Assembly (NCBI GenBank): GCA_902783235.1
Contig: CACZQG010000070.1
Coordinates: forward strand, 1-10,133
Length of the DNA: 10,133 bases
Source: an uncultured Ruminococcus sp.
GTDB taxonomy: Bacteria > Bacillota > Clostridia > Oscillospirales > Ruminococcaceae
Direction of reading: 5' to 3'
Positions 1,131 through 2,948 of this stretch are shown here, piece by piece. Both the position numbers and the translations under genes were made by a program. A model generated the notes under the pieces. The model ran no database searches and was not told the DNA's origin. It saw only the letters and a list, made by a program, of their open reading frames with translations. Positions within the stretch are counted from its first letter, which is position 1. Each line of letters opens with the position of its first letter.

Positions 1131-2390
1131 TCACTTATTCCATACTCTGCCTCTTGCTACAAAGCTTGCAATAGCTGCAGCATCTCTTACGGAGATGGAG
1201 GTATTCTTGTCATCAACGATACCGAAGAACAGACCCTCAGGTGTAACGTTGCCTTTTCTGCCCTTAGCAATGTACTTAGCTATAGCAGCAGCGTCTCTTA
1301 CATTTGTATCGCTATCGTAATTGAAGTCGCCTCTCTTGCCAACTGTTGTGCCTATAACTTCACCGGATGCAGACAGTTTCTTGAAGGTTTTGTAATCTGT
1401 AAGTCCGTTGGGAGTATAAGCAGCAGCTACTGAGATTATAGCATTTGAGTATGTAGCGCCGGGAAGCTCTTCTGTAGCTGTAGCAAAGTTTGTGAGCTGT
1501 GCAACGGAAACATTGAATGTATCACCGGGCATAGCGTCATCAGGAAGTGTAAAGTTCAGAGTTGCCATAGGTGTACCGTCTGTATAGCTGCCTGATGTAT
1601 AGCCAACCAGTGAAACGAAGCATCTGCCGTCCTGTTCAAATATAGTGAATGAATTTGCGCCGCTTACGCCGCCTTCTTCAAGAAGGAGAGCAGGGTCGTA
1701 TTCGATAAGCATATCATAGCAGGAGCACTCGTTGTTAGAGAAGGGAACTACCTGTACTACTGCACTGTCGCCTGCAATACCGGTAACGTTCTTGAGCTGT
1801 ACGCAGTTGCCCTTGATGATTTTATCTGTACCGCCTGTAACTGTTACGATAGCATCCTTTGCTGCATAATCGTCATAGTCAGCATCATTTGTTGAGAAGC
1901 TTGTGATCTCATTGAAGTTTACATAGTAATTATCGTTCTCTGCATTTTCGGGAACCTTGAAGTTGATAGTTGCAACAGCCTCGCCGTCCTTGTAGACGTT
2001 GGGAGTGTAACCAACGATGGAAACATATTTCATACCGTTCTGCTCAAAATCACAGAATGCCTGTGATCCCAGAACTGACTCGAATTCAAGTCTTGAATCA
2101 TACTCAATAACAACATTGTAGCAGGTACAGGTATCGCCTGTGAATGTTGTCATGGGGATAGAAATCTCATCGCCGGGCTTTGCTGCTGTGCCTTCGAGAG
2201 CGATAAGGTTAGCAGTCTCATTAGCCTTGGAATATTTCTTGAAAGACTTCTGAGCTGCGCTGTCAGCTGTTTTTGCAGCCTCCATTTGTTTAACACCTTG
2301 TGCGGATGTGGAAATACCTGTAGCGGAAACTGCCATTAAAGCTGTTGCGAGGATAGCTGTGAATTTGACCATTTTATTGTTCTTTTTCAT
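1131..2390 (-). CDS. secreted scaffoldin-like protein: two cohesin-like modules plus a dockerin
   Basis: 419 residues. Signal peptide 1-30 (MKKNNKMVKF, hydrophobic stretch, cleavage near TSA-Q). Cohesin-like module 1 spans about 61-187 and module 2 about 195-323. Both show the cohesin pattern: an IEYD strand, then a V-G-Y strand, then DGxxxATxNFxxP before the last strands. A dockerin occupies about 352-415. Its first calcium loop is intact (Asp355, Asn357, Asp359, Asp361, Asn363, Asp366); the second is degenerate, with Val392 at loop position 1. Both helices repeat RDAAAIA. Cohesins bind dockerins of other proteins, so this could be an adaptor scaffoldin joining two dockerin-bearing partners to a larger scaffold. 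Both modules carry a Cys-x-Cys at the same place (88-90 and 222-224). The start at 2390 is chosen for AAGGA five bases upstream and for the signal peptide; an in-frame ATG at 2423 has no RBS. The gene follows a c-di-GMP riboswitch. Confidence 0.87.
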   Translation of the reverse strand: MKKNNKMVKFTAILATALMAVSATGISTSAQGVKQMEAAKTADSAAQKSFKKYSKANETANLIALEGTAAKPGDEISIPMTTFTGDTCTCYNVVIEYDSRLEFESVLGSQAFCDFEQNGMKYVSIVGYTPNVYKDGEAVATINFKVPENAENDNYYVNFNEITSFSTNDADYDDYAAKDAIVTVTGGTDKIIKGNCVQLKNVTGIAGDSAVVQVVPFSNNECSCYDMLIEYDPALLLEEGGVSGANSFTIFEQDGRCFVSLVGYTSGSYTDGTPMATLNFTLPDDAMPGDTFNVSVAQLTNFATATEELPGATYSNAIISVAAAYTPNGLTDYKTFKKLSASGEVIGTTVGKRGDFNYDSDTNVRDAAAIAKYIAKGRKGNVTPEGLFFGIVDDKNTSISVRDAAAIASFVARGRVWNK

Positions 2391-2440
2391 AATAATCCTT
2401 CTTTCTTTAGTCGGGCAATCCATTGCACTTATAAGGAATT

Positions 2441-2473
2441 AAAAAACCGCTCCAGTATAAAAACCGGGCGGTT
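2441..2473 (-). terminator. riboswitch-controlled intrinsic terminator upstream of the scaffoldin
   Basis: On the minus strand the arms AACCGC-CCGG (2473-2464) and CTGG-A-GCGGTT (2455-2445) form a ten-pair stem with one bulged A and one G-U pair around an 8-nt loop. It runs directly into six T. It lies 50 nt before the scaffoldin start codon and 46 nt after the riboswitch aptamer, the position of an expression platform. Its 5' arm overlaps the proposed antiterminator strand. Confidence 0.85.
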
Positions 2474-2529
2474 ACATAATACATTGCATCTACTTATTTG
2501 TTCTACATCAGATGCGCTGTATGCAACCG
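2469..2529 (-). promoter_or_regulatory. antiterminator of the c-di-GMP riboswitch
   Basis: The 3' end of the aptamer on the minus strand, CGGUUGCAUA (2529-2520), can pair over ten positions, with one G-U, to UAUGUAACCG (2478-2469). That second strand contains most of the 5' arm of the terminator. A six-pair hairpin, GCAUCU with AGAUGC (2515-2510 and 2491-2486), nests inside. The antiterminator and terminator therefore exclude each other. If ligand binding locks the aptamer 3' strand, the terminator forms, predicting an OFF switch. Ligand-free RNA would read through. The pairing is seen in the sequence; the direction of control is inferred. Confidence 0.65.
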
Positions 2530-2610
2530 GCTGTCGTACCGAATTCGTATCGGCTTAGACCCTCTGGCTTTGCGTCCTTACTTTTCAATAAGTTTGCCAA
2601 ATATTAATCA
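2518..2610 (-). promoter_or_regulatory. c-di-GMP-I (GEMM-I) riboswitch aptamer
   Basis: The minus strand carries the GEMM core in order. First is GGCAAA (from 2598), then a hairpin CTTATT-GAAA-AGTAAG with the conserved GAAA tetraloop. GGACGCAAAGCC follows, whose GCC pairs back to GGC and whose GCAAAG includes the adenine that intercalates between the ligand bases. Next is the tetraloop-receptor segment GGTCTAAG, a second stem CCGA/TCGG, then TACGACAGCCGGTTGC. The base equivalent to G20 of the Vibrio Vc2 aptamer is G, which fits c-di-GMP rather than the cGAMP-preferring variants that have A. The outer P1 helix is not clear on the 5' side. Role: sense intracellular c-di-GMP and control transcription of the scaffoldin through the terminator downstream. 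Confidence 0.92.
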
Positions 2611-2687
2611 TTGTTTACTCATTTACTTAAACGTTTCAGAACTTTACGGTTTCTTTAAAGTTCTATCTTTCGTTTCCTTCTGTAATT

Positions 2688-2716
2688 ATTATAGCATCCA
2701 TGGATATAAATGTCAA
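2688..2716 (-). promoter_or_regulatory. consensus sigma-A promoter of the riboswitch-scaffoldin transcript
   Basis: Minus-strand TTGACA (2716-2711), a 17-nt spacer, and TATAAT (2693-2688), again a perfect match, with an additional extended -10 TGC directly before TATAAT. Predicted start near 2681, giving a leader of about 290 nt. The segment between the start and the aptamer (about 2611-2681) holds a small hairpin (ACTTTA/TAAAGT, 2641-2661) and no convincing leader peptide. With such a strong promoter, control must come mainly from the riboswitch. Confidence 0.88.
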
Positions 2717-2859: not shown

Positions 2860-2948
2860 CTAAAACGTTTAACTGTGATTATGCACAAAAATGCGAGATA
2901 ATTGTTGATGCTGAAAAAATGAAAATTTGTTATTTATTTATCAAACAT

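Follow-up and report, generated by a model that had tools for sequence, protein, structure and literature searches.

A predicted cyclic di-GMP riboswitch ahead of an adaptor-like scaffoldin gene in Ruminococcaceae

Architecture of the locus

The locus lies on the minus strand of a stretch of 10,133 nucleotides (nt) from an uncultured Ruminococcus sp. (assembly GCA_902783235.1, contig CACZQG010000070.1), which was analysed whole and is referred to as the window. It comprises a consensus promoter, a leader with a GEMM-I aptamer of the class that binds cyclic di-GMP (c-di-GMP), an intrinsic terminator, and the gene for a secreted protein of 419 amino acids (aa) with two cohesins and a dockerin-like end; a rubrerythrin gene follows (Table 1). 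We consider it likely that these elements form a transcriptional c-di-GMP-I riboswitch controlling one gene, that of an adaptor-type scaffoldin, which is turned OFF by high c-di-GMP.

A search with the GEMM-I covariance model, which a preliminary description of the locus had proposed as a test of its assignment, was strongly positive: RF01051 matches the aptamer over its complete length (model positions 1–87) with 73 bits against a cut-off of 35 (Rfam cmscan, E 3.2e-13). It is the sole Rfam match over cut-off in the window and the only one at E<=1 within 2380–2760. The perfect promoter and the terminator claimed there on either side of the aptamer are also present. Transcription is estimated to start at about 2681 (minus). 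The promoter scan gave in total three promoter-like sites against 3.0 in shuffled sequences, so the case for the promoter rests on its perfect match to the consensus and not on the count. The terminator scan gave two sites against 0.4 in shuffles: the inner part of the 2473–2445 stem and the end of the upstream gene, where a terminator-like site lies at 2861–2823. The scaffoldin start codon is the ATG at 2390 (minus), behind a Shine–Dalgarno-like motif.

Because a terminator-like site follows the scaffoldin gene and a second perfect promoter (969–941) precedes the rubrerythrin gene, the riboswitch probably controls the scaffoldin gene alone, with the rubrerythrin gene probably outside its control. 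A further terminator-like hairpin at 909–876 (minus) stands between the rubrerythrin promoter and start codon (803); given this hairpin, a separately regulated leader is possible for the rubrerythrin gene, and the Rfam scan of the window lists no match over cut-off there.

Table 1. Positions of the features of the scaffoldin locus in the window
Feature	Position	Strand	Basis or remark
Upstream copy of AAACGTTT	2863–2870		upstream of scaffoldin promoter
Sigma-70-type promoter TTGACA-17-TATAAT	2688–2716	minus	12/12 match, TG before second hexamer
Inverted repeat, perfect, 9 bp	2638–2664	minus	5′ part of leader; sequence; stem present in folds
AAACGTTT palindrome	2629–2636	strandless	between estimated start site and aptamer
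c-di-GMP-I (GEMM-I) aptamer	2519–2608	minus	Rfam RF01051; G at the G20 position
Predicted antiterminator 5′ arm, GGTTGCATA	2520–2528	minus	folding; 3′ end of aptamer
Hairpin GCATCT/AGATGC	2486–2515	minus	folds; between antiterminator arms
Predicted antiterminator 3′ arm, TATGTAACC	2470–2478	minus	folding; overlaps terminator 5′ arm
Intrinsic terminator	2441–2473	minus	stem-loop 2473–2445, U-run to 2441; −15.7 kcal/mol
Shine–Dalgarno-like AGAAGGA	2396–2402	minus	read from sequence
Secreted cohesin–cohesin–dockerin protein, 419 aa	1131–2390	minus	Pfam, alignment, structure model
Cohesin 1	1881–2198	minus	28 bits scored singly (cut-off 24.1)
Cohesin 2	1458–1802	minus	20.6 bits, below 24.1; second Pfam stretch, alignment, structure model
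Dockerin-like end, two VRDAAAIA-motif repeats, second degenerate	1134–1337 (approximate)	minus	alignment; model helices
Terminator-like site 3′ of scaffoldin gene	1061–1092	minus	between scaffoldin and rubrerythrin genes
Rubrerythrin gene	258–803	minus	conserved neighbour; own perfect promoter 969–941

Modules of the target protein

The 419-aa protein begins with a signal peptide (read by eye) and matches the cohesin family PF00963 in two stretches, with 42 bits over the whole protein. Both cohesins are conserved in an alignment of 24 sequences, where the two dockerin repeats can also be seen, the second of them degenerate in the window protein. A search for homologues yielded 42 proteins, the window's own included, from the best 7998 candidates scored, and PF00404 is present in many of the scaffoldin's homologues. 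The preliminary description had proposed a signal-peptide protein with two cohesin-like modules and a dockerin; its cohesins are upheld by Pfam, alignment and structure model, whereas the dockerin is seen as two repeats with a Pfam score below cut-off. Two results weigh against the assignment of modules: the Dockerin_1 score is 15.2 bits, below the cut-off of 22.9, and the second cohesin, scored singly, falls below its Pfam cut-off.

The AlphaFold2 model has a mean local confidence (pLDDT) of 82 and a predicted template modelling score (pTM) of 0.72, with residues 1–47 unreliable. In Foldseek it most resembles scaffoldin complexes (Protein Data Bank entries 4fl4 and 3kcp), together with 3l8q, a cohesin dyad. 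TM-scores over the whole length stay low (0.27–0.38), and those of single cohesins, by target length, rise to about 0.6–0.74; further down the ranking there are unrelated Ig-like chains too. Judged by sequence, the closest cohesin of solved structure is the third one of Ruminococcus flavefaciens ScaB. NCBIfam lists no family for either GEMM target of this genome. The protein looks like an adaptor-type scaffoldin.

Conservation of the leader within the genus

The source genus is probably Porcipelethomonas (GTDB UBA1394) rather than Ruminococcus in the narrow sense. The name rests on one named protein (P0025, 47% identity to the scaffoldin), and Porcipelethomonas is given as equivalent to UBA1394 in PMC9723785. 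Close scaffoldin relatives in named genomes were not found, and a strict GEMM motif search of 80 rubrerythrin-relative loci in named genomes (the best 80 of at least 590) gave no match.

Nineteen GEMM-I aptamers score over cut-off in nine of the 11 genus genomes (G, C and L numbers are our labels for genomes, contigs and loci; G000 is the source genome). The preliminary description had suggested looking for the same leader at scaffoldin and dockerin genes in relatives, and it does occur there ahead of cohesin–dockerin genes. Seven of the 19 precede a dockerin protein with one to three cohesins, followed by rubrerythrin (G000, G001, G002, G004, G005, G006 and G008), the other six scaffoldins having 27–48% identity to the window protein. 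A tandem pair in G009 precedes a cohesin–dockerin protein with a leucine-rich-repeat-like part, with rubrerythrin upstream on the opposite strand. The targets of eight others are Thr-rich proteins that form a family by matching one another; a dockerin over cut-off closes seven of them, and the eighth (L064, G007), truncated at the contig end, lay outside the scan. In this family, a Listeria–Bacteroides (InlB) repeat is over the Pfam cut-off in L062, L065 and L067, just below it in L058, and not listed by Pfam in L060, L066 and L070; DUF5620 is over cut-off in L060, L062, L067 and L070. One aptamer (L061, G005:C120) precedes a protein of 1786 aa for which Pfam lists M60-peptidase and FN3 domains and, at borderline score, an F5/8 domain, and no dockerin. 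The last (L074, G009:C16:2985-3076) has a terminator and no plus-strand gene within 700 nt; this aptamer faces a GGDEF-EAL gene on the opposite strand.

Across the 19 targets, Pfam places a dockerin over cut-off in 13 and below it in three (the window protein, L059 at 12776, and L068), and a cohesin over cut-off in six, with L071 and L072 below; the L073 target matches the scaffoldin alignment at 99.8% probability. A promoter of TTGAC/TATxxT type was picked by pattern, without a shuffled control, 42–116 nt upstream of every one of the 19 aptamers. All 19 also carry G at the discriminating, guanine-reading position, which we take to be G20 of Vc2 and to mean that the aptamer reads c-di-GMP rather than cyclic GMP-AMP (cGAMP); this key base points to c-di-GMP as the ligand. 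Two candidates were rejected: a sub-threshold GEMM match in G003 (L011), which lies inside a dockerin-coding open reading frame (ORF), and, as a scaffoldin orthologue, the best cohesin match of G010, whose 255 aa comprise a single cohesin-like part and a tail resembling an anchor, and at which the searched GEMM motifs are absent.

Only two GEMM-I aptamers were found in the source genome (assembly 88% complete), so the gene for a 2060-aa leucine-rich-repeat, multi-cohesin and dockerin protein and the other cohesin genes encoded there stand without one. With 65 dockerin matches in 2.1 Mb, it is unlikely by chance that both GEMM-I targets bear dockerins (about 1 in 1000 by our estimate, if there are about 2000 genes).

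Occurrence beyond the genus

GEMM-I matches occur in 72 of 297 genomes of the family (68 over cut-off), four of the 72 belonging to this genus. This survey used stricter filters and scored at most 14 candidates per genome, so that some matches were possibly lost. Outside the genus, 124 aptamers from 63 genomes were examined; five of the listed aptamers above cut-off (G175, G293:C12 twice, G179:C15 and G248:C66) and five below were left out of this set. In eight of the 124, one of the two nearest plus-strand ORFs downstream encodes a dockerin (six genomes, three genera), as detected with our own profile built from genus dockerins; in all five of these loci scanned with Pfam (L094, L097, L099, L104 and L136) the Pfam dockerin is over cut-off. 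Transglutaminase–dockerin proteins are among these targets, as is an ORF of G094 that spans two frames, in which the dockerin passes its cut-off and the cohesin, at 16.7 bits, does not. Two tandem aptamer pairs (G094 and G181) stand before proteins related to the Thr-rich family (33–38% identity) that are cut by contig ends. The other targets, among those listed, are varied, for example pilin-like or chemoreceptor-like by our own reading. Tandem double and triple GEMM-I aptamers were also seen in other genera of the family (L119, L103, L100 and L144).

Predicted sign of the switch

Folded without constraint to 2441, the leader pairs GGTTGCATA (2528–2520) with TATGTAACC (2478–2470) and the terminator is broken (−58.7 kcal/mol); enforcing the aptamer lets the terminator form in full (−53.4 kcal/mol). 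Folds extended to the start codon give −68.8 and −62.9 kcal/mol, respectively, and a gap of 5–6 kcal/mol is payable by tight ligand binding. Since the aptamer shares its 3′ end with the competing pairing and shares nothing with the terminator, the ligand should cause termination; the predicted sign, left open in the preliminary description, is OFF, with c-di-GMP lowering scaffoldin expression. At low c-di-GMP, the aptamer 3′ end would pair with the upstream terminator arm, polymerase would read through and scaffoldin would be made; at high c-di-GMP, the aptamer would close, the terminator would form and no scaffoldin would be made.

Of the 19 genus leaders, 16 entered the pairing and partition-function tests, and the scaffoldin leaders of G001, G004 and G005, in which no terminator is credible, were dropped; for L063, where the automatic choice was a weak hairpin, the terminator was set by hand in the pairing tests. 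Tail and arm pair more strongly within a leader (mean −11.4) than in permuted pairs (−10.2; p 0.009), and in seven of the 16 the pairing outdoes dinucleotide shuffles at 0.05 or better; because three leaders share identical tail/arm segments, they do not count as independent in these statistics. With the tail of the aptamer blocked, the partition function gives the window terminator 6.8 expected outer pairs instead of 4.0.

Several results weigh against a switch of this kind. The window leader has a shuffle fraction of 0.058, and nine of the 16 leaders exceed 0.05; in just two of 16 does the tail find its best partner in the terminator of the same leader. In the equilibrium partition-function model, terminator formation depends on the tail in only two of 16 leaders (the window and L058), the terminator forming with or without a free tail in 13 and in neither case in L066. 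The three dropped leaders, all of scaffoldin genes, would need another mechanism. The model supports an aptamer-controlled platform unevenly among related leaders. By eye, a GCCCTT ... AAGGGC pair is present at the ribosome site of the three leaders without a credible terminator (L071, L072 and L073); it might hide that site, acting on translation.

The opposite sign, in which c-di-GMP favours read-through at the same riboswitch, would accord with the usual attachment picture, c-di-GMP commonly promoting attached life, and with clean OFF switching being modelled for so few leaders. Against it, the terminator is wholly outside the aptamer and the rival pairing takes the aptamer's own 3′ end, so that a folded aptamer should help the terminator; an ON switch is in our judgement unlikely. 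In Clostridioides difficile, all but one of 12 c-di-GMP-I riboswitches are reported to lower expression with more c-di-GMP, in favour of OFF, and the remaining one, which speaks for ON, went up (PMC3649979).

A probable cellulosome setting

The preliminary description had tied the locus to cellulosome or adhesin assembly, and the genome supplies such a setting, with 13 cohesin matches (ten over cut-off) beside its many dockerins. From this we infer a cellulosome role for the 419-aa protein. The riboswitch could instead be real and its target a general cell-surface or matrix protein built of cohesin-like modules: cohesin folds exist outside cellulosomes (2xdh and 2w1n are among the fold matches), the dockerin of the window protein is under the Pfam cut-off, and GEMM-I outside the genus precedes varied genes among the targets listed. 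That the genome holds these cohesin and dockerin matches, a cellulase combining glycoside hydrolase family 9, carbohydrate-binding module 3 and a dockerin (GH9-CBM3-dockerin), and the multi-cohesin protein with a dockerin makes a target outside the cellulosome improbable.

Cyclic di-GMP enzymes as possible input

At 88% completeness, the source genome yields a single match each to GGDEF, EAL and PilZ. Its GGDEF protein (L077:3948-5933, plus strand, G000:C36) carries a LacI-type periplasmic-binding domain (PF13377, PF13407 and PF00532), with no DNA-binding domain listed by Pfam, and has an intact GGDEF motif with the canonical Asp of c-di-GMP makers, where Hypr cGAMP enzymes have Ser. Full-length relatives of this cyclase (53–66% identity) occur in seven other genus genomes; the one GGDEF protein examined from G006 is not a relative of this kind. 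The GH9-CBM3-dockerin gene lies near the cyclase in the source genome, a neighbourhood that is absent at the seven cyclase relatives examined, and no conserved link is claimed. As a further inference, this LacI-GGDEF, sugar-sensing diguanylate cyclase is a possible input to the circuit.

G010 (99% complete) has no GEMM-I, GGDEF, EAL or PilZ match, yet 48 dockerin matches. This co-absence concerns one genome and is suggestive only. Matches to EAL are missing in G002 and G003 as well, and matches to PilZ in G004, G007 and G009, so those absences mean little by themselves.

Operator-like palindromes

The palindrome AAACGTTT, which we take to resemble a LacI/CcpA operator, occurs on both sides of the scaffoldin promoter (Table 1). 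In 132 kb of genus loci, chosen around these genes, it occurs 36 times against 4.1 expected; it lies between the −35 and −10 hexamers in all eight Thr-rich-protein leaders and L069, and several others lack it in the promoter stretch (L059, L063, L068 and L073 among them). A combined promoter–operator pattern was tried and rejected: with two mismatches it gave four matches in the source genome against eight in the control; the spacing in the pattern was off by one for the promoter at C164, and this comparison carries little weight.

Such sites could form a second layer. They could also indicate that the leader is a leftover whose aptamer no longer switches and that a LacI/CcpA-type repressor mainly sets the gene, as the palindrome's enrichment in these chosen loci and the marginal pairing statistic of the window would allow. 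With the aptamer core conserved in 19 of 19 genus leaders, and GEMM-I missing from the near-complete genus genome that has no GGDEF and EAL matches, we regard a leftover leader as very unlikely.

Ligand specificity

The base A at the discriminating position is presumably the mark of GEMM-Ib, the cGAMP class; A replaces G in 17 of the 136 aptamers readable at this position (seven of 143 are unreadable, and some of the 17 are possibly misread tandem copies), and one of them, L083, precedes a CheW-like protein by our own reading. No c-di-GMP-II match was found in G000, where no control responded, so that absence is not shown. Sensing of 3′,3′-cGAMP by the window aptamer, although GEMM-Ib riboswitches responsive to it are established in Geobacter (PMC6456294), is scarcely credible with G at this position in all genus aptamers and the canonical Asp in the genome's one GGDEF match.

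Comparison with known systems

At the discriminating position, Geobacter GEMM-Ib aptamers have A, whereas the window aptamer has G. The Geobacter riboswitches nonetheless fall within GEMM-I, as one of its subclasses, and their regulon is surface-related (PMC6456294). The C. difficile riboswitches Cdi1_3 (before flgB) and Cdi1_12 (before CD2830) share the aptamer family and the predicted OFF by premature termination (PMC3649979). The C. difficile targets are flagella, an exported protein and prophage genes, whereas the window target is a cohesin–dockerin protein. R. flavefaciens ScaC, like the window protein, combines cohesin and dockerin, and recruits further enzymes into the complex (PMC5934362); it is described as monovalent, with one cohesin and a dockerin (PMC11557425), whereas the window protein has two cohesins, and the window scaffoldin also differs in that its neighbours are not scaffoldin genes. 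The 5′ untranslated region of the xyl-doc cluster in Clostridium papyrosolvens, termed a putative riboswitch, likewise terminates transcription of cellulosome genes; its ligand is thought to be an oligosaccharide and its targets are hemicellulases, and the text of that source does not mention GEMM or c-di-GMP (PMC5815224). A 2025 review presents riboswitch-linked dockerins as a design idea (PMC12484212). Searches of the open-licence literature turned up, among the papers listed, none with a c-di-GMP riboswitch before a scaffoldin.

Discussion

The riboswitch class is known, and the window aptamer is a well-matched member of it. New, as far as searched, are its conserved use on a cohesin–dockerin scaffoldin and on dockerin-bearing surface proteins, and the predicted OFF sign, which is opposite to a simple attachment picture. 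As most GEMM-I targets of the genus are dockerin-bearing secreted proteins, the choice of adaptor and adhesion parts that enter the cellulosome is probably made through c-di-GMP. More tentatively, and in our view less likely than not, c-di-GMP from the LacI-sensor cyclase might act in the cellulose-degrading gut bacteria of the family as a switch of cellulosome composition, GEMM-I turning adaptor scaffoldins and dockerin adhesins off at high c-di-GMP, so that nutrient state as well as surface contact would govern what the cell builds on its surface.

To our knowledge, little is understood of how anaerobes choose the scaffoldins that they make. With a conserved riboswitch, of a class whose ligand is known, before an adaptor-type scaffoldin, this choice becomes testable in vitro. 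If the LacI-GGDEF cyclase is the input, sugar sensing would be linked to the make-up of the cellulosome, and a signal known for attachment may also shape the assembly of fibre-digesting enzyme complexes.

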